This document shows positions 1,120 through 62,010 of a DNA stretch of 64,000 nucleotides, piece after piece; the first letter of the stretch is position 1, and every line of letters starts with the position of its first letter. Origin of the DNA: Loxodes magnus (Eukaryota; Ciliophora; Karyorelictea; Loxodida; Loxodidae); the NCBI GenBank assembly GCA_946699065.1, contig CAMPDV010000366.1, forward strand, positions 1-64,000, read 5' to 3'. The notes beneath the pieces were generated by a model. It did no database searches. It was not told where the DNA came from and worked only from the letters and a program-made list of their open reading frames with translations. The translations under genes and the position numbers were made by a program.

Positions 1120-2345
1120 TTCTTTTAGTTTGCTGGTTGACCAATAAAATTAGTATTTAAGGTTCACCTTTCGTTTTTTATGATATTCGTTATTTCATAT
1201 TTTTAAACGTTTATTCTTAGCTTTACTCAAGTAAATCTTAAACTCTAGCTTATTTTGGATTTAGTATATTCGATTATGAATTTAAAATTTCTTTTATGTC
1301 ATCTGCAAAACCTCGCACTACAAAATTTTAAGGCAGAAAGAATCTATATTTTTTTAGTTTTCTTTTAAGTATCTTACATTTCTGTCATAATTTAAAATAG
1401 CTATGAATACTTCCTTATGGTACTCCATTATTAATTTTAATTGATCTTATAAAGCAACTATCTAAAATAAACTTAACATCAATATTGTCTTAAAATGATT
1501 CGTAAGCAAAATTTAAATTTAAGGGCAATCTCAGCCCTTACAAATTATCAAAAAGCAATTTCCAAGATATAGTATCGAACATTTTCTTAAAGCCAAATAG
1601 AGTAGCACTAAGTTTATTTTTATATATTTCATCAAATTTTCTATTTGAAATATCAATATCTCCTCAATTTAAGTTTCAATATTTATTAAAAACTTGATTC
1701 TCCCAACTTTATATAAATAATTATGTCTAATTAGAATTAAAATTCATTTGATTACGAATTCTTGCCTTTATTAGGTTTTATGCTCTTTTAAACATATCTT
1801 GGAGATTTTATTTGTTCATTATTTTTTCCTTCATTTCTCATTTTTTCCATTTTCAAAATTTGTGAAGATAATGTCTAATAATATATCTTCTTGTTTATGT
1901 TTTCTGCAATTTAGATATTGTAAAGAGTTAACATCATTACTATTCTTATTAAAATCTTTTTAAATCACATTTCAAGGTCATACTTAATGGAAAATTATCA
2001 GTATATAGTCCAGAATCTTGAATATCTAGCAAATCCGCAAAATCATCAGAGTTTAGTTGCTGAGTTGCTTATAAGTAAGTTTCCAATTTCCACATTCTTA
2101 AAATGTCCATAAAGTTTTGAGAAATCAAGTTCAATTTAGCAAGAGTCAAGTCTTCTAAAGCAAACAGACAGACATCGCCACCTCGATAATTTACATTTAA
2201 AAAATAATATCGTTATTGTTCTAAAGCAATAGGAAAATAGGCTTATTATATTCAAGTTTCATTTATTGAAAATATAAAAATCATTGTCAAATTTTTATTT
2301 TTATACGGATTCATATTTGCTAGATATAGAATTAATATTTATAAG
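1120..2345 (-). pseudogene. Decayed LINE (endonuclease + reverse transcriptase), internally deleted
   Basis: Read on the minus strand with TAA/TAG=Gln and TGA=Trp, this gives an apurinic-endonuclease start (NINSISSKY, then INETWI with TGA as Trp) near 2345-2230. A second endonuclease block (FADLLDIQDSGL...FPLSMTLKCDLKRF) lies near 2030-1950. Reverse-transcriptase palm motifs follow (KKMFDTISWKLLF, LRLPLNL, KINNGVPQGS, FVVRGFADDI) down to about 1290. The plus-strand copy at 2880-6634 has the same residues in the same order, so both belong to one LINE family. The spacing from endonuclease to palm is only about 350 nt here against more than 1 kb there, so most of the finger region is deleted. 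Frame changes are present. The catalytic FADD is retained but the copy is dead. Confidence 0.8.
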
Positions 2346-2879: not shown

Positions 2880-5800
2880 TTAGAAATTTATATGCATTTT
2901 CGATACAGGATTTAAAGGAGAATCGCAAGTAAATTAAAAAAATATTAATCTTGATTATACTTGTATTAATAAAAATAATAATAAGACTATATTTAGACGG
3001 AAACCTAATTTAGTAGGAGATTTTGAAAGAATATAGAATTCTAGTTAAAGAATGTATGCTGAAATACAAACAACTAAATAAATAAAAATAGGACATGTTA
3101 ATATAAATTCTATAGCTAGTAAATAAGTTACATTATAATAGTTTATTTTAGATAATTATTTTTATATTTTTCTATTAATGAAACTTGAATACCAGATCCT
3201 TATAGTTCAATAATTCTGTAATAATATAGAACTTATTTTCAAAATGGCAATACTGAAGCAGGTGACGCATATTTATTAGTCAATAAATAACTTGACTCTT
3301 GTCAAAATTATATTGATTTTTCAAATCTTCCTGGACATTTTATATGTATAAGTGTTGAGAAATTAACAATTGCGTCTTGCTATTTGCCCACAAATGAAAA
3401 TCAAATATAATTAAGAATATTGCTTATGAATATCTAAGCAATATCATAAATTTTAATAATCAAAATCCTACTATTCTCTGTGGCGACTTTAACGCTTTAA
3501 TTCCTAATTATGGCAATAATTCATCACGAATCAATAATAATACTTAAAGGTTAATGGATTTGTCAGAAGCAAATGATCTATTAGTTTTAAATGATTAGTT
3601 ATCCAATACTTTTATTCATAGGGTTAATAATTAAAACTACTGTAATGACTATTTCATAGCAACATAACATTTAAATTTTGATGACTTACTGATTTTAGAG
3701 TTATTCGACATTCAGGACTAGACTCTGATCATATACCTATAAGTATAACTTTGAAATTTGATTTAAAAAGATTTGATTAATAATAGGAACAGTGATTGTT
3801 GTTTAAAATTTCAAAACTTTAAGACCCAAATACAAAAAACTACTATTAAAGTCTATTTAAAGGATAATATTACTAATTTTGGTTGATTGATCAAGATGAT
3901 GTTGAGAGTTAGTATAATCTTATTTGTTACTTAATTACTTATAATGCTTATATAGCTATTGGATTGCAAAATTAGAAAGGTAATTATTATAGATTGCCAA
4001 GTTAAATAACTTAATTATTTATCTAAGCTAAAAAAACAATATTTCAAATTAAAATAGCTTTTTTTTGTACGGAAGGCATAATTAGGAGGTTAGCAAACTA
4101 TTCTAGATTAAAAATAAATCCTATAGGTATTATTTATACTAATTTGAAAGTGAAAAAATAAAAAGCCTAGAAAAGATATTATGATCTTAATAAAGATACT
4201 ACAGTAATGTTTAAATAAGCTAAGAATCTAATAAACCCAAAAATTCGTAACTAAGTGAATTATAATTATAATTAAAACTAACAGTAGTTATTTATTAACA
4301 GTTGAGGAACTCTAGTTTTTAATAAGCATTCAATTCTTAGTTAAGAAGAAAATGAATTTTCCAATAAAAAGATAAATGGAATATATAAAAATAAGTCTTT
4401 TATCAACAACTATGAATTGAGTCATCTTTAGATTATACCTCTTTTTTCGGATCTTGAAATTAAAAAAATAATATCTTAACTAGCAAACAATAAAGCCTCA
4501 GGTTGTGATGGTCTTAAAGCTGAACTTATTAAATATGGAGGGTAAGAATTATATAAAATAATTACTCGCTTTATAAATAATATGTTTAGAACGCTTAATA
4601 TACCGAATAATTTGAAAAAAGTTAATATACTTCCTATTTTCAAATAAGGAAGTAGAAATATTTGAATTAATTGGCGAACTATTGCTTTACTAAATTGTTT
4701 GTTAAAAATATGATAAGGTAATTACTTAAAGACTTTATAATTATATATATGAACGAAATATTTTACACTCAGCTTAGTTTGGATTTCTCCGTAAACGTTC
4801 CACTACTTAATAAATTTGAACTGTTTAATAAATCATTGATTTACATCGTAGATGATCAAGAAAGAAATAATTAATTGCTACTTTAATTGAATATAAAAGA
4901 TGTTTGATAGTTTACATAGAAAATTACTTTTTGGTCATATAAGAAGACTGAGACTTCCATTAAACTTATCTCTTGCTCTAGAATCATTTTATAACAATAT
5001 TGATGCTAATTTTATTATTGATGGATATCTTACTAGAACAATAAAGATTAATAATGGTGTTCTATGAGGAAGTTATCATGGTTCTTACTTGAAATTCTAT
5101 AATATGACATTGTTATAAGATATTTAGAAGATAATTAAAAGAAACTAGGATATAATGTTAGTTCCAAATCTTTCGTTGTGCGTGGCTTTGATGATGATTT
5201 AATTGAATTTACAGATTTCTAAAAAAATGCCCAAAAACTATTAAAAGCCACAATCAATATTTTTACTTGAGTACAACTTAATATAAATGCAAAGAAATGT
5301 GAAACGATTTAATTTCTGAGAAAAAAGAGAAAGAAATTGAAATTAACTTAAACATTAATGGATTTCCAATCACATAGACAGACTCAATCACTTATATAGG
5401 TTACAAATTGTGTAAAAAGTTAAATTATAAAAAGCATTTTGAAGAAAAGGTTTCTGTATACAGGAGAGCAATTTTGAAAACGACTGCTGTACTTTCCAAA
5501 TAAGGTATTGCATCTCCAATTAGTTATAAAACCTTTGTAGAACTTTCATTTTCATTTTAACCAAAGTAGAATATGGAAATAATATAACTCCTTGATCAGT
5601 AATGTCAGGAATTAAAGGGATGCTTAGAAAAGTTACTAGATTCCAAAGATTTATATCAAGATTAGCTTAAAATCTTCTTAATCTTCATTTAATGAATCTT
5701 GCTTTATTAATCTAAATTGACTTCCATTTATCCACTCTTATACATAAAAATTTATGCGTTTTTACTGGAAATTAACTCGATTCAGCTAGGAAAATCCTAA

Positions 5801-7225: not shown

Positions 7226-7723
7226 ATTACAAATAAAATAAATAAAATGGAGCACTTAATTAAATTTTTAAATAATAATCAAGATTATAAACTAACTTTG
7301 CCAGTGCAAATAAATTTTAGCTATTTCACAAAAAAAATTAAAAATTTCATTTGAATTTAAATCTTTTACTTAATTTAAATTTTTACAAAACCTAAAAAAT
7401 AAATCAATAATAATTTTGACGAAATAAAAGCAAATTATTTTTATTAGATATCTTAAATACTAAAAAAATTATTTAAATTTACCATTCTTAATTCACATGC
7501 CCACTTTCATAAATTTCAATAATCTATAAATATAATCTACCATGATAACCTTTGCTTTAAAGAATATGAAACTTTTTAATTGCTAAATAAAACATATACG
7601 TAAAGCAACACTTAATAAACCACCAAATACTTAACTCACCTTGAACATTAATTTAAATAACTTTATCTAACTTATTTTCTTTAAAATGAAAATTAAATTA
7701 AATCCAAATAAAGTTACTCAACT

Positions 7724-8674
7724 TCAATTCGTAATCCTCCACTTTCGCACAATCTTGTCATATCCTCCCGATACCAACCATCTATTGTCAACACTCAATG
7801 CAATAGAAGATATTTATCCTATATGCCCTTATAAAGTCTAGATACACTCACCCTTATCAAAATTCCAGATCTTGATTGTTCTATCCAATGAACCAGAAAA
7901 TATAACAATTGAATCAGCACTTAACTGAATACTTCATACAGCATTTGTATGACCTCGAAGAGTACGAATACACTTGCCAGTTGAGAAGTTCCATATCTTA
8001 ATAGTCTTGTCAATAGAACCCGATATGATATACCTATTATCCTTAGACACTATTACCGATCTAACTTCACTTGAATGCCCAGATAGAGTTCGCACAAGTT
8101 GACCAGTCTAGAAATCCCAGATCTTTATGGTTTTATCCCAAGATCCCGATATAATAAAGTTAGAGTCAGGAGAGATTACTATCGATCTAACTCAGTGAGT
8201 ATGTCCCGTTAAAGTTCTTTGGAGAGCACCAGTCTATGAGTTTCAGATCTTTATCGTGTTATCCCAAGATATTGATACAATATAGTTAGAGTCTTGGGAA
8301 ATTAATACCGAGGAAACTGAATCAGTATGTCCTGTTAAAGTTTTTATAAGGGTTCCATTGTGGTAATTTCAAATCTTTATCGAATTTTCAGGATATCCTA
8401 AACCTGATACAATTCAATTTAGGTCCCTTGATATGGCTACCGAGTAAACAAATGAGGTATGACCTGTAATGACTTAGTCTAAAAAAATTAAAAAAATACC
8501 TTTACTTTGGTCATAACTGATCTTATTTATAAGTTTTTAGTAACATAAGTTGGGCAGAATTTCATACTTAAAATGAAGAAGAGATATTTTCCCTAGGATG
8601 TGATTTTTCGCTCTTTGGAGTTTTCTTAAAAAAATACTTTTAGTAAATTGCTTTTCTTTTTTCTCCATTTTCAT
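7724..8674 (-). CDS. Six-repeat WD40 protein, one 21-nt intron
   Basis: The minus-strand gene is complement(join(7724..8478,8500..8674)): 310 codons including the stop, 309 residues. It opens with ATG at 8674 (a second ATG two codons on), then a Lys/Gln-rich head of about 60 residues. Six WD40 repeats follow, each of the form GHT...SGS.D.TIKIW, ending KWRITN. WD repeats build beta-propellers used for protein binding; six repeats may make a propeller alone or with the head region. Five tryptophans are TGA, two of them at the invariant WD position (KIWN in repeats 1 and 2); other repeats use TGG. TAA and TAG are Gln. A GT-AG gap at 8479-8499 must be removed to keep frame from SYDQSK into DQVITGHT. 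The stop is the TGA at 7724-7726, with another TGA two codons later. The partner and role are unknown. Confidence 0.85.
8479..8499 (-). other. 21-nt spliceosomal intron (GT-AG) in the WD40 gene
   Basis: Read on the minus strand it starts GTATTT, is almost pure T/A, and ends TTTTAG. Removing exactly these 21 nt joins the head exon to the first WD repeat in one frame. Very short introns are known in several ciliate groups. Confidence 0.7.
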
Positions 8675-10080
8675 TTTTATAACTTACTGTAATAACTACT
8701 TAATTAAAATAACTCTATAAATTTTAATGACTTAATTTCAATAAAATTAAGCAATTAAATTATTTATTAAGTATACTTATAAGTATCTTATTTCTAAAAT
8801 ATTAAAAATTCTATTTTAGTCTTAAAACAAGATAAGATATAAAACTAATTTTAAATATTACAAGCTTTTACAGTTTTAATTATTTTATATTTTTTTACTT
8901 TTAAATAAAAGGATAATTTATTATATCAAAAGTTAATAACTAAGAATTTATATCCTTATTATAATAACTTTAATATGCATTTATTAATTACAACTTATTT
9001 GTGTTTAAATAAAAGACTCTTAATAAGAAAGCCTTATTTCTTTATAGACCCTTTTAAATGATAAATAAAATATTATAATTATTTTAAAGCTACTAATAAT
9101 AATTATTATTTTCACTTACATTTAATCAAAAAATTAGTTTTTCAAAGCTCTCATTATTTAATAAAATAAAATAAGTTTCTTATTAATTAGTTTAATAGAA
9201 ATTATTTAAAACAAAGTATTTAAATTTAGAATTTATAAGATAGATTCTTTTAATTATCCACTTTCTTACTACTATTTCATTTAAACTTTTTACTTATAAA
9301 AGTCTCTCATAAAATAATAAACTAATATTATTTATTACTTTTAATATTGACTCTAAGCAAAATAGGTTATATAAACGTAATAAACAGTAGTAGTAGAAAG
9401 TAAATATTTAAAACTAACTATAAATGGTGTATCACTAATTTAATTTTCTAATTATTAAATAGTAGTATTTAATTTTATTATTAAAATAAGCTTTAATATG
9501 TTTAATTATATCTATTAAATACTTAATATTTTATCCTTTAGCTTTATTAGTTATTAATTTAGATTTAATTTCTCTTTAGTTAATAAAGATATTAGATTAG
9601 TTATAGATAGTAATTATTACATTTAGATAACTTTCTCTTTGTATAGTAAACTAATATTATATTTATTATTAATGTTATTTAAGGAATTATCATTTTAAAT
9701 TAATAATACCTAAATTATTTTACTTTATATTACACTTACTTCTTTTCTATTATTCTATACTTATCCAAGAAACATAGTTACCACTATTAATACTCTTTTT
9801 CTTACAATAAGTTGTTTGTTATTAAGAAATTATAAGCTTTTAAGAAAGAAAGCATATTTTTACTTCCTTCTATTATTATTTTCTGAATTAATAGAAAGAG
9901 TGAACTTAGCATAATATGTTTCTTTGTAATAAGTATGAGATAATATAAGTATTAGAATAGCTAATATAAGTTATTTAAACTAAATTAATGTCACAAGAAA
10001 TCCTAGTCTAGTTGGTTTTAGTTATAAAATTAGAAATAATACAATCTTTAGTAGTAATAAGAAAGGATTTAAATAAACAT
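8675..10080. other. A+T-rich intergenic stretch
   Basis: Nothing recognisable on either strand. The sequence is very A+T rich with no conserved motif, tRNA or repeat array. It should hold the promoter of the WD40 gene read leftwards from 8674, but no specific promoter element can be pointed out. Confidence 0.6.
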
Positions 10081-16639: not shown

Positions 16640-17045
16640 ATATGCAATGATTGCTGCAAGAGAAGACGAGAAAAACTGAGTGAAATTAGATTCAAGACTC
16701 AAATTAATGGAAGAAAACCTGTAGAAGCTTTCATAAGAAATTCCAATGGAAATAGAGAAACAAGAAAAGACATTTTCTAGAGCAAGAAAAAGAAGCTACA
16801 TTTGCAACAGCACTTAACATTTATGACGGAAATGTCCCCAATAGAAAAAAATAAGAATTAATATCTGGAGAAATGTTAACTAATAGCAACTAAAGTAATG
16901 AGCAACGGAATTCTTCCTATCAGGAAATGGTAAAATTTGGAAAAAAAATTCTCAACTCAGATTATATAAAAGAAAGAAGTCATGGATAAAATGCAATATG
17001 AGGATAGAACATGCAGAAACGGAGATTTATTACATTTAAAACTTC
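16640..17045 (+). pseudogene. ORF1-family copy (coiled coil + zinc knuckle), truncated
   Basis: A plus-strand frame shows a coiled coil (LDSRLKLMEENLQKLSQEIP) and then RSYICNSTQHLWRKC. This is the family zinc knuckle C-x2-C-x4-H-x4-C with the first Cys replaced by Ser; the Trp of HLWRKC is TGA. A GNGKIWKKN motif downstream matches GRIFRRR of the intact copy at 17755-18525. The N-terminal part is missing or unrecognisable and there are in-frame irregularities. It is an old copy of the same mobile ORF. Confidence 0.6.
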
Positions 17046-19984: not shown

Positions 19985-21560
19985 AATTATAATGACTTTA
20001 GATTATTCATTACCAAAAAACCTATTTTTATCATGAGTCACTATATTTTTTTCTTCTAAGGATAATTCTAAATCAATGATATTTTAGACTTCACAGTAAT
20101 CTCTTATCGAAGTGTGGGTAAATTAAATTCTATTTTTGTAGCTTTACTCTTCTATCTATATCAAACATCCTATATAACTTTATTTTTATTGAATTACTCT
20201 CTTCACTTTTAATTTCATTCTTCAAAATTTCTAGCAGGCACTGATATATTCTATAGTATATGGATGCTTTTACCTTATTTGAAAGCGCTGTTTATTGCCT
20301 TATATTATCCCAATTCATCATGCGCATCAGATAATAATAATAATAATAGTAAACAAAAGTAATAAAAGTTTAGTCTCCTCTAGATTTTCAGCCAGGTTTT
20401 TGCTACCATTTTTTTAGCGTGGGTAGAAAGACTGAGAATCTTCTGTTTTTTATGCAAATAATTTTTTCTTGTATACCCCTGTTTGAGTAATTCAGAGTCT
20501 ACTGATCATGCTTAACGTTCTTCTTTGTTCTTTTATCTAAATTTACCTTTATTGATCGCAATTTTGTAATAAGTGTCACTTTGATTTGGAATAATAGCAT
20601 TATTTAATCTGTCTTTTCTTTAATCTATTCAGAAATAATTTTTTCAAATTAGCTAATTCTTTTTAGTAAGTTTATATTAATCTTTTCGTCATTCTATTTA
20701 TGGACTTTTGCTTATGTAAAAACTTTTTCAATTATCATATTTTGTTCTTGCTTAAAATTCGATTGAGATTATTCATATAGTTACTATTTCGTGACTAAAT
20801 TATTCTAAATCAATTGTCGTCTAATTATAAGTAACTCATTATTTTGATCTTTGCTAGTATTCATTAGTTCTCTTAGTTTTTCCCCTTGATTGAAATTGTT
20901 TCCTAATAATTATGTATTATTGTTTTCATTTAGTCAAGTTATATTTATAATTATGATTAATTTTACACCTTTATTAGATTTGTCTCTATTGTTCTAACTA
21001 TGACTTTTCCTTCAGATGAGGAACTTTATTTATCTTCTTTCTTTTGTTGTCTCGCGTTTGTTTCGCTGCTTTCCTTTTTGCGTTCTTAATTAGGTTTTTA
21101 GAAAGGCGAATAGAATATACAATTTTTTTTATACACATCAAATAAAAACAATATTTTATAAACTTAAAATTTTATTTCTCTTAAATTGTACTATTTTAAA
21201 AAGCAAATTCTTTTAATTTATTTTCAAATGCTTTAATGGTTGGAAGATATACTAATATATATAAATATTCATTATTATACTCTAGATACTTTAAAGTTAG
21301 AACTTCTAAAAATAAATTTTTCCAGAACCAGAATCTCAAAAATTAATAATCCTGTTTACCTATCATTATCTAAAAATTTGAAAAATTCAACTGAAGATCG
21401 TCCTTAACCATAAACTTGGATTTAGAGAACATTATAAACTTAAGAAATATTCTTATTTCTTTATATATCATCTTTTTTATTTTTTATCATATTTTAATAG
21501 ATACTTTTTTTACATTTTAAAGTAAGTCAGTTCCATTCTATTGTTTAAGTAAATTAAAAA
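19985..21560 (-). pseudogene. Decayed NACHT ATPase, paralogue of the gene at 23217-28300
   Basis: Minus-strand DNA aligns block by block with the intact NACHT gene. It keeps the region upstream of the P-loop (about 21400-21560). The P-loop is degenerated to NFWDSGSGK (about 21314-21345; intact copy LLGDSGSGKS). The YVYLPTIK block survives as LVYLPTIK (about 21231-21255) and Walker B as LSDAHDELGQY (about 20299-20345; intact FDAYDELGNY). The C-terminal helical part continues to about 20060. The copy is interrupted by an ORF1 element at 20335-21135. Pentapeptide and WD repeats are absent. It lies about 1.7 kb from, and in the same orientation as, the intact gene, so it is probably an old tandem duplicate. 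Confidence 0.8.
20335..21135 (-). mobile_element. ORF1-only retroelement inserted in the NACHT pseudogene
   Basis: About 0.8 kb of foreign sequence separates two blocks that are contiguous in the intact NACHT gene. It is flanked by a ten-base target-site duplication, CATCAGATAA at 20325-20334 and CATCAAATAA at 21136-21145 (one mismatch). Read on the minus strand it carries a Ser/Lys/Gln-rich head, a coiled coil (NEEL-type heptads around 20700-20900), a zinc knuckle CYYSKSKWHLLQNC in which the second Cys is Ser, then ISRLWITQTGVYKKKLF, which parallels LSRIYVDKDGRIFRRRLF of the intact copy. It ends in a (TTA)n tail at 20335-20349. Frame changes show decay. Tail plus target duplication is the hallmark of target-primed insertion. 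No polymerase is encoded, so it probably relied on an enzyme in trans. Confidence 0.75.
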
Positions 21561-21940
21561 GCAAGCTCTAGATGAGTTAAAATTCAAGTTTATATCAAGT
21601 CTTAATTTCCAAATGACACAATATTTTAGAATTATAGGAATCCATCTTCGATATATTACCTTACTAGATCATAATCAAGAATATCTAAGATATTTAACAT
21701 TAAAATTGTTTTTTTATGGATTTTTTCATTTATCTATCCATGACTCCTTATAAAGAAATTCTTTAAGATGGAGATAACATTAGTATCCATAATTCCAACT
21801 AAAAAATACAAAGAAAACAACTTTCTAACAATCTAAATAAAATTACAGAACCATCAAAATAGTGATTTAATATATTATTTGGACAATATTAAATTTAAAA
21901 ATTAGATTTTTTATCTTAAAGTGTTAAACAAACTTTTAAA

Positions 21941-22080
21941 ATTTTATTCCGTCACAAAAAATTTTATTCCGTCCCAAAAAATTTTGTTCCGTCCCAAAAA
22001 AATTTTGTTCCGTTCCAAAAAAAATTGTTCCGTCCCAAAAAATTTTGTTCCGTTCCAAAAAAAATTGTTCCGTCACTAAA
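21941..22080. repeat. Array 1 of the ~20-bp TTCCGTCCC repeat
   Basis: Seven imperfect units of about 20 bp, each TTCCGTCCC or TTCCGTTCC joined by A and T runs. The array is followed at 22088-22110 by TAGTGTAAAACGCTGAGCAA, the same motif that follows array 2 and the relic at 7025-7050. Confidence 0.85.
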
Positions 22081-22349
22081 AACTCATGTAGTGTAAAACG
22101 CTGAGCAAAAAAACAAAAATAAATTTTTCACGTTTTTTGCATTCTTTTCTACTTTTTTATCTCTTCAATTTTACAATTTTTAACTTTTTCCAGAAAAAAC
22201 ATACTTTACTATATTACACCTTTTGACTTCTTTTCTTCGCTTTTTCACTCCGCTTTTCATTTCAAAACATTATTTTACTCAATCATACTTTTTTGACCTA
22301 TATTGAAAAAAAAAACTTTTTAAAACTCATTTCTTTTTTAACCCAAAAA

Positions 22350-22572
22350 ATTTTGTTCCGTCGCAAATAAATTATACCGTCCCAAAAAAAATTTATTCCG
22401 TCCCAAAAAATTTTATTCCGTCCCAAAAAAATTTTGTTCCGTCACAAAAAAATTTAGTCCGTCACAAAAAAATTTAGTCCGTCCCAAAAAAATTTAGTCC
22501 GTCACAAAAAAATTTTATTCCGTCCCAAATTATTTTATTCCGTCACAAATTATTTTAGTCCGTCACAAAAAA
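22350..22572. repeat. Array 2 of the ~20-bp TTCCGTCCC repeat
   Basis: Eleven imperfect units (TTCCGTCCC, AGTCCGTCAC and similar) with A/T-run spacers, followed at 22577-22605 by TAGTGCTAAACGCTGAGC. Arrays 1 and 2 with their tail motif look like one duplicated module. The stretch between them (22111-22349) shows nothing else. Confidence 0.85.
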
Positions 22573-22682
22573 TCTCCTATAGTGCTAAACGCTGAGCAAA
22601 AAAACAAATTCTTTATTTTCACTTCTTTTACACACTATTACATACCAAATTCAACAAAAAACTTGCACACTCATAACCTAAC

Positions 22683-22730
22683 ATACCCTACATACCCTAC
22701 ATACCCTACATACCCACATACCCACACTTA
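22683..22730. repeat. Short (CATACCCTA)n-type tandem repeat
   Basis: Four to five copies of a nine-base unit, shortening to CATACCCA at the right end. It lies in the C-rich, G-poor 3' flank of the NACHT gene. No function is apparent. Confidence 0.75.
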
Positions 22731-23216
22731 AATATCTTCTTCCAAATTCCTCTTAAACCTTTCCTTTCTCTCTCCCTCTTAACACTTAACTCTTCAATAA
22801 AAAAAAATACTCACCACACTCACATACTTTTTATTCAATCCATTTAAATTCTAAAATTATATATAGTAATTACTAACAACCATACTAATACTTTCGTACT
22901 CACATTTTCTCTAATTTTATTATTTCTCTTTTAAATTCAAATATTACACTAATTTATCCCTTTTAATAACCTCAAACACTAAATTTTTTCACTTTTAATT
23001 TGTTATTTTTCACACACCCTTTCTAAAATACTTTTAACTACTCTCTTTATTTCCAACTCTTTTTATATTACTCAATTAACTTTTTAAAACACTTATTATC
23101 TAACACTATACATACCACTTGTCTTATTAAATACTTTTAATCAAAAAAAATTATAACTTATAATTTACTTATCTTAATTCAATTATTATTATTTGTAAAA
23201 ATTTATTCAAGTCTCA

Positions 23217-26200
23217 TCACAATGAAAGATACCTGTCTCCCATTAGTCTCACATTCATCTACTCCATTGCCACTCCCTCAAAGTCACATTGATACACCTT
23301 CAAACCATTCCTTCCCATCATCCTCTTCAGCACATAATCCCGATGATCCTTTGCTAACTCCCATATCTTGATTGTTTTATCCCAACTTCCAGATATTAAA
23401 TACTTAGAGTCACTTGATAATACCAGAGAAGTAACACCAGAAGAATGACCCTCTAATGTTCTTATAAACTCATATGTTTACATGTCCCATATCCTTATTG
23501 TTTTATCACGACTTCCAGATATTAAATACTTAGAGTCACTTGATAATACCAGAGAAAGAATAGGTAAAGTATGACCCTCTAATGTTCTTATAAGCTCATA
23601 TGTTTACATGTCCCATATCCTTATTGTTTTATCATATTATCCTGCTGATATTAAATACTTAGAGTCACTTGATAATACCAGAGAATTAACCCAATGAGTA
23701 TGACCCTCTAATGTTCTTATAAGCTCATATGTTTACATGTCCCATATCATTATTGTTTCACTTCCAGATATTAAATATTTAGAGTCACTTGATAATACCA
23801 GAGAATAAACAGAATCAGTATGACCCTCTAATGTTCTTATAAGCTCATATGTTTACATGTCCCATATCCTTATTGTTTTATCCCAACTTCCAGATATTAA
23901 ATACTTAGAGTCACTTGATAATACCAGAGAAGTAACACCAGAAGTATGACCCTCTAATGTTCTTATAAACTCATATGTTTACATGTCCCATATCACTATT
24001 GTTGTATCATCACTTCCAGATATTAAATACTTAGAGTCACTTGATAATACCAGAGAAGTAACCCAAGAAGTATGACCCTCTATTGTTCTTATAAGCTTGT
24101 ATGTTTACATGTCCCATATCCTTATTGTTTTATCATATTATCCTGCTGATATTAAATACTTAGAGTCACTTGATAATACCAGAGAAGTAACAAAATCAGT
24201 ATGTCTTTATAGAGGCTTAGTTAGATTATCTACCTACATGTCCCATATCCTTATTGTTTTATCCCAACTTCCCGATATTAAATACTTAGAGTCACTTGAT
24301 AATACCAAAGAAGTTACAACATTAGTATGACCCTCTAATGTTCTTATAAGCTCATATGTTTACATGTCCCATATCCTTATTGTTTTATCATCACTTCCAG
24401 ATATTAAATACTTAGAGTCACTTGATAATACCAGAGAAGTAACATAAGAAGTATGACCCTCTAATGTTCTTATAAGCTCATATGTTTACATGTCCCATAT
24501 CATTATTGTTTTATCCTTACTCCCAGATATTAAATACTTAGAGTCACTTGATAATACCAGAGAAAGAACAGACCAAGTATGACCCTCTAATGTTCTTATA
24601 AGCTCATATGTTTACATGTCCCATATCATTATTGTTTTATCCTTACTCCCAGATATTAAATACTTAGAGTCACTTGATAATACCAGAGAAAGAACAGACC
24701 AAGTATGACCCTCTGATGTTCTTATAAGCTCATATGTTTACATGTCCCATATACTTATTGTATTATCTAAACTTCCCGATATTAAATACTTAGAGTCACT
24801 TGATAATACCAGAGAAGTAACAGACCTAGTATGACCCTCTAATGTTCTTATAAGCTCATATGTTTACATGTCCCATATCTTTATTGTGTTATCACCACTT
24901 CCTGATATTAAATACTTAGAGTCACTTGATAATACCAGAGAATTAACAGACTTAGTATGACCCTCTAATGTTCTTATAAGCTCATATGTTTACATGTCCC
25001 ATATCCTTATTGTTTTATCCCAACTTCCAGATATTAAATACTTAGAGTCACTTGATAATACCAGAGAAGTAACACCAGAAGTATGACCAGTTATGGTTGG
25101 CATTTAACCAAAATTAACCTAACTCATATTTGCACCATTGAATTTACAATTCCTCAACCATGCTCCCCTGAAATTCACCTTAGATAAATTAGCACCACTC
25201 ATATCACAACCATCAAACACCGAATCACTCAAATCCGCCCCAGGTACCTAGATCTCCCGAAGATCTGTCATCTACGTAAACTGATAATCCATTCAATTCA
25301 ATATTGTTATACAGTTAGCACCCGCCGTTTATAAAGCTTTATTGGATCTTGTTCACTTCACTATCTCCAATAAATTTTATTAAACCTAAACCGAACTATC
25401 TATCTCCCTTATAAACTACTAGATCTCCTTATTATCCACTATCGAATATCTGTTTATTTCGTGAGCCTCTATTGAATTTATGCTATTTTGCTAATTTAAG
25501 ACTAAATTTACTATATTCCTTGCCACATAGTAATCCCTTATCGAAGCATGAATAAACTCAAACCTCTTTTAACCATTTTCCTCTTTTATCTATATCAAAC
25601 ATCCTATGTGATTGGAACTCTCAGTCAGTTAATCAATTCATTACTAGATTTCCTTATCCATACTCTCTAACTTTAACTAACCTCTTAACATCTAGTATGC
25701 CGCACTTATTTAAATATCCTAAAATAACTTTAACAATGTTTGTATTTCCTCATTTTATTTATTTAATTCTTTTAACTTTTTTAACTTTTATTCAGTTTTA
25801 TCATTTCATTTATTTATAAAGATCTCATATATATTTGCCCTTTACACCTTTTTATCCACTCCTCTCCTCAAATACTTTATTATTTCCTCTTCACTCATAC
25901 ATATATATAACATAAAAGGATTATTTATAATTTCCATTAAACCCGGAATACTTTAGATGATACTCATTTACTCTTTTACCTTTTCAATCATTTCTATTTA
26001 CTACTCATTCACAATTTAACTTGGATCTTAATTTGCACTTTAACTAGCACCTTGATTCTATTTTCTTAAGATTAAACTTATATATTATTCTATCTAACTT
26101 TGATCAAAAGGCTTTATATATACCTCCTCCAACTGTTTTACCTAAGCACTTTCATTTCTATAAGGAGAAAAGAAATTTTTATAATTATCAGCTGTTAAAG

Positions 26201-28300
26201 CATAATTGATTCTACAAGTAATTATATACTTTGCCTAAGGGTATTTATAGCTTATTTTATTTTTACTCATTATGCTAATATAATTTCCTAATTCATCATA
26301 AGCATCAAATAGAAACACCATCTTCCTAAACTTCGAACTTTCATTTTCCTCAATTTTGCAGTTTTTTAAAGCTGTCTCTATTAATTAGTCTTCATATTAT
26401 TTAATGGTTGGAAGATAAACGTATATCGGTAGTCAGTCATGCTTCTACTCCAGAAACTTATATGCTAGATTTTTCAGAAATAGAGATTTTCCGGAACCTG
26501 AATCTCCCAAAAGTAATAATCCAATTTTATCTTTACTGTCTAAAAAGTTCTAAATTTTGCTTTTAAGATTATTTTATTCCTTAGAACTAGGACTAGGAGC
26601 ACATAATAAACTTACGTAATACTCCTTCTTTTCTTAAATCTCATTTTATAAATAACTTTTCATATTCTAATATATTTTACTGTCTATACCCTTTAAGGCC
26701 AACCAATTCTCCTCCATAGTTTAGGTAAATTAAGTAACATGGTCCTAATTCTTTAGTATTTCTATTACTATCTATTGTTCCCTATCATTTTAAATTAAAC
26801 TTTCATTCTTTTGCTTAAATACTCTCTCCTTATAAGTTGTAGCTACTTAGTTCTTGTCAATGCTTAGTTCTAATAATTATTTCAAAGCAAAGTATCGAAT
26901 CTACCAATCTTTATCCTTACACAATTGTTCTAGCAGCTAGCACGATTCCTTAACTAATTCTGGAGAAGCTTTAGGATTTTTAATCATATGCTTCAAAAGT
27001 TAACATGCTCTAAATCTTAAGTCCAACTTTTCTTTCAAGATGAGACTTTTAAATTGTTCAAACGTTACTTACTTATATTTAATTATCAAGTCATATGTAA
27101 GAGCATCCAGGTATCTTATTCTAACTATTTTTTTAAGGTGAATTTTTGAATTTATTTATTTAGTTCCCCAAACAATGAAATCCTTTATTATGGAGATCGA
27201 CTTAGTATCTATTGTTCCATCTCCCAACGATAAAGCAACTACCCATTAAGTGACTTTTAATGCCTTACAGAAAACATTAAAGTAATCAGAATCTTTATTG
27301 TCTGGAATATTTTCCAATATCATCTAACTGTATCTTAAGTCAAAATCAAGCTCGGGACCTCCTATTTACTTTATATTTACTAACTTTAATGCAAACTCAA
27401 TTTTTTACATGAGTTTCCCTTTCGTTTCTGCATTTATGAAAAAATCATTATTATTCTTATTTTCCTTACTTTTAGAAGAGTTTTACTCATTCTTCTAAAG
27501 CAACATATCCAATAACTCAGGAAGATTTTATACAAGCTACTCCTTCAAGAGCTAAGACCAACCTTCAGTATATTAATGAGAGACTATTTCTATAAATTGA
27601 TTAATTAACACCAAAGGATCATCTAGTTTGACTAGTTTATTTTTTTGAATGGTTTAAATTCCTTGTAGAACTAGTTCCATCTTTTACTAGCTTAAACCCT
27701 CTTTTAAGAGGCTTAACCCTTTTTGATAAAGTTCTTAGTCTTCAGTTCCTAAAACTAGTTATTATGATTAAGTAACATTTGTATTGCTTCCTTATGGGAA
27801 TAATTAAGTTAATTGAGGGGTTTAACCTTTTTACTTCGTACTGCAACAGCCTCCTCCCTTCATTTTCATACTTTTCTAGAATTTAAAGTTTTAGATTTAT
27901 TTGATCCGCACTGCTCCTTAATAAGAAGTAGTCTATAAGCTTTCTTTTAGATAATTTGTTTAGTTTATCTAAAACTCTTTAACATCTAGTATTTCTGCGT
28001 TTACCAGATAAGGATAATTTTGAATTAAGCTGTAACTTTCAGTAACTATATAGTAACGTAAGGCATTTTCTGCTATTTTTCCTTTAATATACTCTTCCAT
28101 TAATCTCGGCAAAGTTTTATTATCCATAAACTCATTAAAACTTGATTTTAGCATAAATCTAATTTAAGTTTATCCATCAACCTTTTTGAGTATCTTTTAA
28201 TCCTTAAAATTTGCATCCGTTTAAATTTACTAGGCTAATCAGATTATAACATCATGAGATTTTAGAAATCCATATAATTAGCTTTAAGACTGAAAGCCAT
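23217..28300 (-). CDS. NACHT ATPase with pentapeptide repeats and 14 WD repeats (STAND-type)
   Basis: complement(join(23217..28158,28182..28300)) gives 1,686 residues plus stop, in one frame throughout. Order: helical, partly HEAT-like N-terminus (e.g. DKDWQIRYFALKQLLEL); P-loop GDSGSGKS at 591-598; HDWLPIYVYLPTIK with TGA as Trp; Walker B FDAYDEL at 657-663; a helical arm ending FEFIHASIRDYYVAR; LNWMDYQ (TGA again). Pentapeptide repeats follow (GADLSDSVFDGCDMSGANLS and on), about 1010-1058, then 14 WD repeats of about 42 residues to the end. STAND NTPases of this build act as ligand-triggered signalling switches, with the WD propellers sensing; 14 repeats suit two seven-bladed propellers. 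The stop is the first of two tandem TGAs (23217-23219). The start may lie further upstream, since the frame stays protein-like past 28300. Ligand and effector are unknown. Confidence 0.85.
23360..25105 (-). repeat. Fourteen near-identical ~126-bp WD-repeat units
   Basis: The block TTAGAGTCACTTGATAATAC recurs about every 120-129 bp, 14 times, within near-identical units (ISGSWDKTIRIWD, GHT). Most differences fall in a few codons, notably just after GHT. One unit has lost about two codons (near 23750). Such DNA-level identity implies recent unit duplication or ongoing gene conversion. Confidence 0.9.
28159..28181 (-). other. Probable 23-nt GT-AG intron near the NACHT gene start
   Basis: On the minus strand it begins GTTGATGG and ends AAATTAG. 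Removing it joins the frame starting at ATG 28300 (MAFSLKANYMDFQNLMMLQS) to the long frame (RYSKR-FMLKSSFNEF). With the intron removed, the span 28300-23217 becomes an exact multiple of three, consistent with the P-loop and Walker B codon phases. Alternatively translation starts at ATG 28154 with no intron. Confidence 0.55.
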
Positions 28301-40772: not shown

Positions 40773-40844
40773 TCCGAGGTAGTATAGTGGCTAGTATTTC
40801 TGCCTGTCACGCAGACGACCCGGGTTCAATCCCCGGCCTCGGAG
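40773..40844 (+). tRNA. tRNA-Asp(GUC)
   Basis: 72 nt with a perfect seven-pair acceptor stem (TCCGAGG/CCTCGGA), discriminator G, A-box in TAGTATAGTGGCTAGT, anticodon stem CTGCC/ GGCAG-type closing a loop with anticodon GTC (CTGTCAC), and a T arm CCCGGGTTCAATCCCCGG with B-box. It is an intact eukaryotic cytosolic tRNA with no intron and no encoded CCA. It is the only clearly functional RNA gene seen, and its high G+C makes it stand out from the surroundings. Confidence 0.96.
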
Positions 40845-61083: not shown

Positions 61084-62010
61084 ATGGAAGAATTCAAAAG
61101 AGGTTTCTATACCACCTCCAAAAAGTTTAAGAGGAAGCCTGATTCCAATATTATATAGCCTTCTTTCCCTTAGCCTTAACCGTTTTCTTAAACTTAATAA
61201 CTTGGAGAACAGAAACAAGCTCAGAAGACAGCACATGCAACAACTTCGACCTCATAAGAGAAACCAAAGAACCAGATGAAGTTTGCTCTTCACTAGGAGT
61301 CTCAGAATTTAATCCTTCTGACCAGATGGGTATGGAACAGCTCATCCAAGTTGTACTAAACCTCCAGGAAGAGGTCAAGAGACTAAAGAAGGACAACGAC
61401 AAGCTAATGGAGAATCTGAGCAAGCAAGAGGAAATCGTGTCAAGAATTAGGTCTTAAGAAAAGGAATTAAGTGCATTTTGGAACATATCACAGAGTCAGA
61501 ACTACTAATCCTAAAATTAGCAATAGAAACAGACGGAGTTGGGCAGCAAGCTTGGAGAAATAGAAGAGAAACTGCAACAGCAAATGAAATTTAATGAGCA
61601 AAGAGGTGATACAATGCTGATAGAGGTAATTGACAAGAAGAAGAAGGCTAAGCCAATCAAAGTAGTTAAAAGGTGCTACTATTGTAATTCAGAGAAACAC
61701 CTATGAAGAAGATGTGAGCAATTCCTAAACTTTAAGAACCAGTATTGGAGAAAATAAAGGAAATAGCAAGAGTAGCAAAAGAAAAAGAGACAACTATAAC
61801 AAAGGAAAATTAGAGAGAGACTATTCATTAACTAGCTTGGAAATATTTATAGAAAGGAACCTTTGCTTAACGGAAGACATAGTTAGAGACAACAAGAACA
61901 AGTGGGTGGGAGAAGAGTAGAGATTTATAGACTTTTATTTAATCCCGGAGCAATCTGGGACCGGCATGAAGAGGTGAAAATCCTCGAAATTTGCCAAATT
62001 TAACTATTTT
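61084..62010 (+). pseudogene. ORF1-family copy A (coiled coil + zinc knuckle), frameshifted
   Basis: ATG 61084 opens MEEFKRGFYTTSKKFKRKPD, parallel to the head of the intact copy. A frame change follows before 61320. From 61326 the frame reads MGMEQLIQVVLNLQEEVKRL with a long coiled coil, then KRCYYCNSEKHLWRRC (C-x2-C-x4-H-x4-C, Trp=TGA) at about 61670-61712. A long Gln/Arg-rich stretch and LGNIYRKEPL, the counterpart of GRIFRRR, come next. Near 61960-61992 lies GAGG...CCTC around TGAAAAT, the small hairpin also found past the stop of the intact copy. One frameshift aside, the copy is well preserved and visibly less A+T rich than its surroundings. Confidence 0.7.

Follow-up and report, generated by a model that had tools for sequence, protein, structure and literature searches.

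In-frame UGA codons for tryptophan in a WD40 repeat family and an NLR-like gene of the karyorelict ciliate Loxodes magnus

The DNA analyzed here, i.e. the whole stretch of 64,000 nucleotides from Loxodes magnus that we refer to as the window, harbors a gene for a WD40 repeat protein and an NLR-like gene, both situated on the minus strand (Table 1). With UAA and UAG read as Gln and internal UGA as Trp, the WD40 gene was found to form a single frame, in which an N-terminus of approximately 64 residues is followed by six WD40 repeats. Pfam PF00400 was accordingly recognized in six stretches of the minus-strand frame 7720-8689 (E 1.1e-67). From the start Met onwards, four TAA and three TAG codons occur in frame, and the 12 Trp codons are distributed over five TGA and seven TGG. 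A gene with six repeats and five TGA at Trp positions, two of them at the invariant Trp of the KIWN motif, had been proposed in an initial sequence-only reading of the window. Both the Pfam result and the paralog columns described below bear this out.

Alignment to protein structures in PDB, where 2ymu was the best match, placed Trp opposite the two KIWN positions and the NAVW position and Ser opposite GHTHW, with DLNW situated outside the aligned stretches shown. Structure prediction, carried out for 13 members of the WD40 family, yielded a confident all-beta repeat domain. Averaged over blocks of ten residues, pLDDT exceeded 80 for residues 71-310, stayed below 50 for residues 1-64 and was 71 for the last four residues. 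A search of plasmid DNA gave no match.

Table 1. Features of the window discussed in the text. Positions are those of the 64,000-nucleotide stretch; codon counts refer to the corresponding alignment column in the non-redundant WD40 paralogs (n) unless otherwise indicated.
Feature	Position	Strand	Remarks
WD40 protein gene, six repeats	7724..8674	minus	UAA/UAG read as Gln, internal UGA as Trp; translation, Pfam
Internal TGA, DLNW	8414..8416	minus	TGA 32, TGG 4, other 4 (n=40)
Internal TGA, KIWN, invariant WD-repeat Trp	8369..8371	minus	TGG 30, TGA 7, other 3 (n=40)
Internal TGA, KIWN, invariant WD-repeat Trp	8243..8245	minus	TGA 31, TGG 3 (n=34)
Internal TGA, GHTHW, hypervariable register 5	8192..8194	minus	TGA 6/40, TGG 0
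Internal TGA, NAVW, hypervariable register 7	7934..7936	minus	TGA 3/40, mostly Ser/Arg, TGG 0
Terminal TGA, stop of the WD40 gene	7724..7726	minus	Column shared in 68/70 paralogous loci
NLR-like gene: N-terminus, NACHT, linker, 14 highly alike WD40 repeats; ends TGA TGA	23217..27869	minus	Pfam, translation
Internal TGA, HDWLPIY	26433..26435	minus	NLR-like gene
Internal TGA, INKW	25806..25808	minus	NLR-like gene
Internal TGA, IQQW	25638..25640	minus	NLR-like gene
Internal TGA, IVKW	25353..25355	minus	NLR-like gene
Internal TGA, LNWMDYQ	25293..25295	minus	NLR-like gene
ETW string with TGA	2252..2260	minus	String search
ETW string with TGA	3180..3188	plus	String search
HLWR string with TGA	16818..16829	plus	String search
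HLWR string with TGA	61698..61709	plus	String search

In the NLR-like gene, the NACHT domain (PF05729) was recognized only just, with 27.0 bits at a cut-off of 26.7, and 14 WD40 repeats were read from the translation, Pfam likewise giving 14 stretches. The N-terminal piece (26621-27872) matched no Pfam family, HET included, and a PDB search with the NACHT piece gave no match. The HDWLPIY and LNWMDYQ motifs with TGA that had been assigned to this gene were found as described, within one open frame, and all five internal TGA are located upstream of the WD40 repeats. The N-terminal and NACHT part, 837 residues in length, had 54 matches genome-wide (self counted) with identities down to 64%, and all 54 contain in-frame TGA, one to five each, as counted in a six-frame search where a short read-through intron could add some. 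A separate genome-wide search for the NACHT family gave 31 matches, seven of them with TGA, and the NLR-like locus of the window was not among these 31.

TGA had also been assigned to the ETW motif of a LINE and to an HLWR zinc knuckle, in two copies each. The strings with TGA do exist in those numbers, but the domains to which they were attributed were not recognized: in the four frames around them, Pfam identified neither a LINE endonuclease nor a reverse transcriptase or zinc knuckle, and a single PHD hit was weak and below threshold (E 0.0098). At 23207 there is a third ETW string, which shares sequence with the end of the NACHT gene but lies in a different frame. The sole tRNA found in the window is a tRNA-Asp (GTC) on the plus strand (40773-40844).

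By searching the genome (705,730,643 bases in 7,843 contigs) with the WD40 protein, we obtained 231 matches, among them, apart from the gene itself, four with 94-96% identity on other contigs. A sample of 70 loci (L012-L081) was aligned, so that the family comprises at least 70 loci, possibly with alleles among them. TGA was masked as X in the alignment, so that Trp was not favored by it. Collapsing at 95% identity left 40 non-redundant loci, hereafter the 40 paralogs. All 70 loci contain internal TGA, between one and eight each, and 68 of them, each 290 codons or longer, have TGA at the terminal column. In five loci (L026, L028, L062, L063 and L073) a stretch looks frameshifted, as indicated by a match in another frame or by less than 30% identity to the family; these stretches look like a frameshift, an intron or decay. 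Many of the family's matches lie in open frames of approximately 360-380 residues, i.e. longer than the window copy. One locus, L034, consists of almost identical repeat units in succession, which suggests homogenization of repeats. Furthermore, six contigs (C1503, C119, C9, C620, C1832 and C272) carry many strong WD40 matches, often at multiples of 126 bases, and on C1503 and C620 a good part of these have one TGA each.

The meaning of TGA was examined column by column. A Trp column was defined as one in which the majority of codons other than TGA encode Trp, and columns filled in at least 20 of the 40 paralogs were used. TGA makes up 119 of the 353 codons (34%) in the nine Trp columns, as opposed to 58 of 13,553 (0.4%) in all other columns. 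Removal of the five doubtful loci changed this little, with TGA at 110 of 319 codons in Trp columns and 43 of 12,263 elsewhere (columns filled in 18 or more of 36 loci). The interchange of TGA and TGG at Trp columns is directly observed, and TGA is concentrated there to a greater degree than chance would give. Out of the 177 internal TGA of the 40 paralogs, 58 fall in columns with a majority other than Trp. For the 43 that remain without the doubtful loci, the column majority is mixed (24), Tyr (9), Leu (4), Ser (3), Arg (2) or Gly (1); most of these may stem from aromatic exchange and hypervariable sites, and a few may be real nonsense. Overall, 180 of the family's 435 Trp codons (41%) are UGA, which constitutes 1.3% of all codons.

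Residues opposite the three codons were also tabulated, in this case between paralogs of the same genome and from standard sense codons only, instances lacking these being excluded. Trp was the commonest residue opposite TGA, with a fraction of 0.47 as compared to 0.07 for Cys (146 instances used, 34 excluded), and Gln was the commonest opposite both TAA (0.38; 149 used, 42 excluded) and TAG (0.51; 57 used, 103 excluded). In the Gln columns of the 40 paralogs, TAA and TAG account for 60 and 32 of 358 codons, respectively. Gln had been assigned to the TAA and TAG of the WD40 gene itself, and across the family this residue is favored. At single columns of the gene the support is weaker than for Trp, owing to their mixed make-up: of the seven TAA/TAG columns, three also contain CAA or CAG (in 2, 8 and 8 of 40 paralogs), TAA or TAG fills another three almost completely, and one is hypervariable. 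Taken together, these data support the interpretation of UGA as Trp and of UAA and UAG as Gln.

The same usage was found in other genes. Among 150 listed matches to the Ras domain, 101 contain in-frame TGA, one to four each, counted by the same six-frame search and hence with the same possible contribution from short introns. At the invariant Trp of Ras switch II, extracted with a motif pattern from 25 matches, there are 14 TGA, 10 TGG and one TTT, and the switch-II Gln is TAA or TAG in 22 of these 25, the pattern having permitted CAR or TAR only. Three matches to eRF1 domain 2 contain TAA and TAG and no TGA. A pattern search for tRNA-Trp gave seven matches, and none of the five that were scanned is a tRNA; a tRNA-Trp of Loxodes with a 4-bp anticodon stem and the anticodon CCA, capable of reading UGA, is reported in the accessible part of PMC13092985.

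A conceivable alternative is a code of the Tetrahymena type (NCBI table 6), in which UGA acts as stop only and the genes would be pseudogenes whose TGG codons had turned into TGA by G-to-A decay. The GC content of the window, 17-30% in 4-kb steps, would lead one to expect such drift, many of the WD40 copies are recent duplicates, and five of the 70 loci look frameshifted, as described above. However, the 65 loci without a shifted stretch each have one to eight internal TGA as well, and the terminal TGA column is kept in 68 of the 70. Decay is further contradicted by a median dN/dS of 0.47 over 702 pairs of WD40 paralogs (TGA taken as Trp), by the concentration of TGA in Trp columns, and by its occurrence in Ras-domain genes. 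We therefore consider this alternative very improbable and reject a pseudogene status; a code with TGA as stop only is contradicted by the internal TGA in 70 out of 70 loci.

At the gene ends, TGA occupies the terminal column of the WD40 family in 68 of the 70 loci and TAA or TAG in none, the two exceptions (L026 and L079) carrying other codons. The earlier claim that no codon is reserved for stop consequently holds insofar as UGA has an internal meaning as Trp, and is refined in that UGA is the only terminator seen in this family. Besides the fixed terminal TGA, a near-absence of TGA from the last 20 codons was directly observed. In the 38 of the 40 non-redundant loci that have a terminal TGA, Trp is encoded by 78 TGG and one TGA in the last 20 positions and by 161 TGG and 169 TGA in positions 21-300; without the doubtful loci, the corresponding numbers are 72 and one near the stop and 151 and 149 upstream. 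Two conserved Trp columns of common ancestry account for most of this depletion, which hence reflects few independent columns. Far upstream, about 89 codons before the end, another Trp column likewise consists almost entirely of TGG (39 versus one). Codons for Gln of any kind hardly occur in the last 20 positions of the WD40 loci, so that the depletion described here concerns TGA.

These gene ends also bear on a code of the Condylostoma type (table 28), where all three codons have both stop and sense meanings. In Condylostoma magnum, as here, all 64 codons can be sense and stop is determined by context, and the sense meanings of the three codons are identical. According to what is accessible of the published descriptions, however, UAA and UAG also terminate in that species, and neither appears at the terminal column here, albeit with one family looked at. 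A table 28 code for this DNA is for this reason about as improbable as the Tetrahymena-type one. Of the two types named by the sequence-only reading, i.e. that of karyorelicts and that of Condylostoma, the former (table 27) is thereby retained and the latter is not. Less probable still is programmed readthrough or selenocysteine insertion at particular genes with no genome-wide reassignment: UGA is the codon commonly used for both, and a low background of such uses is possible, but opposite TGA Cys is far rarer than Trp, and TGA is common to the WD40, NLR-like and Ras-domain families, often with several per gene.

The data as a whole are almost certainly best explained by the ambiguous code of Loxodes magnus, table 27, with UGA as Trp inside genes and as stop at their end. 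The window would accordingly represent the macronuclear genome of this karyorelict, in which UAA and UAG would both be read as Gln, and UGA would be read as Trp within coding sequence and as stop just before a short 3' UTR and poly-A tail, the dependence on the poly-A tail being taken from publication. The WD40 gene would then be an ordinary user of the table 27 code, within a diversifying multigene family. In the portion of PMC11441545 available to us, the Loxodes magnus macronuclear assembly is described as 706 Mbp in size and rich in retrotransposons and repeats, and karyorelicts including Loxodes are assigned table 27, with UGA as the sole stop and also as Trp at a large distance from the poly-A tail. 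Short 3' UTRs and a depletion of coding UGA over about 20 codons before the stop are likewise reported there for Loxodes. As far as the accessible text of PMC11441545 and of Swart et al. 2016 (PMC4967479) goes, table 27 as known from Parduczia and Loxodes (UAA and UAG as Gln, UGA as Trp and sole stop, UGA rare near the stop) does not differ in kind from what we found. The share of UGA does differ, being 1.3% of codons in the WD40 family as compared to 0.12% reported for Parduczia. The code of this DNA is thus already published for Loxodes magnus, and is a well-known exception to the rule that stop codons stop. The WD40 family adds a clean natural demonstration of it, TGA and TGG being interchanged among dozens of paralogs other than close to the gene end.

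The part worth following is instead the receptor-like families. Two of the five TGA in the WD40 gene stand in hypervariable columns where none of the 40 paralogs use TGG. Variation within the 42-residue repeats is concentrated mainly at positions 5, 7 and 23, numbered from the G of GH. In the repeats of the fungal proteins HET-D and HET-E, strong positive selection has been described at codons 7, 9, 25 and 27, two pairs flanking conserved residues (PMC1805685, in the part available). Judging from spacing and consensus, these codons would match positions 5, 7, 23 and 25 in Loxodes. The four positions were fixed beforehand from the fungal literature and then tested in repeats 2-6 of the 40 paralogs, doubtful loci included, where they ranked 1, 3, 2 and 5 out of 42 in pN. 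Their pN is 0.55 and their pS 0.31, a ratio of 1.7 (bootstrap over 20 columns 1.45-2.23), as compared to a pN of 0.11 and a pS of 0.26 (ratio about 0.4) at the other repeat positions, with the caveat that pN/pS between paralogs among which gene conversion is probable does not amount to a formal selection test. The fit is imperfect, since position 4, whose pN and pS are equal, takes fourth place in pN, and a pN/pS above 1.8, albeit at lower pN, is also seen at positions 3, 6 and 13. Among the 778 codons at the four positions, Trp is represented by 29 TGA and 29 TGG.

A similar pattern was found in the repeats of the NLR-like gene, using the 11 out of 14 that are of regular length. Here, pN is 0.50 and pS 0.14 at the four positions, versus 0.09 and 0.15 at the others. 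Variation at position 25 is small in these repeats (pN 0.19), and two further positions, 4 and 28, are also variable (pN 0.65 and 0.40, respectively).

The NLR-like gene resembles HET-D, HET-E and HNWD of Podospora anserina in that a NACHT domain is followed by many near-identical WD40 repeats (PMC1805685, PMC12222747 and PMC2873952, as far as their accessible text goes). Loxodes and these fungal genes also share the concentration of diversity at two pairs of positions around a conserved residue, with spacings of 2 and 18. Unlike the fungal genes, the Loxodes ones belong to a ciliate, the NLR-like N-terminus is without a Pfam domain such as HET, and the WD40 gene at 7724-8674 is without NACHT. 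Moreover, the variation in Loxodes is known among paralogs and repeats, as opposed to alleles for the fungal genes. The diversifying WD40 family probably recognizes variable partners, and analogy with the fungal genes points to a possible role in non-self recognition. We tentatively propose that the NLR-like and stand-alone WD40 families of Loxodes are large, are still diversifying at those surface positions of the repeats that diversify in the fungal allorecognition receptors HET-D and HET-E, and constitute a ciliate non-self recognition repertoire, with Trp partly encoded by UGA, and that this repertoire either evolved in parallel with the fungal one or is far older than fungi; as a whole we regard this as possible, if slightly short of probable.

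Receptor-like families of this type were not found in print. Among the matches listed in a search of open-access literature (titles and the beginnings of abstracts), with preprints and most subscription journals outside its scope, there was no report of ciliate NLRs or hypervariable WD40 families, and the main text of PMC11441545 contains no mention of NACHT, WD40 or immune. Standard annotation would cut such genes into pieces, a possible reason why, as far as this search extended, no NLR-like repertoire whose WD40 repeats are hypervariable in the fungal manner is described for ciliates.

Lastly, two observations concern the genomic surroundings of the NLR-like gene. GC skew, computed in 4-kb steps, is strongly negative over positions 20001-28000 (-0.37 and -0.30), which span the gene. 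On five contigs, namely that of the window, C669, C1564, C1661 and C1155, a close WD40 copy is separated by 17-19 kb from an NLR-like match, a pairing which points to a duplicated or allelic block. On three of these five contigs, a Ras-domain match is also found 31-32 kb from the WD40 copy.
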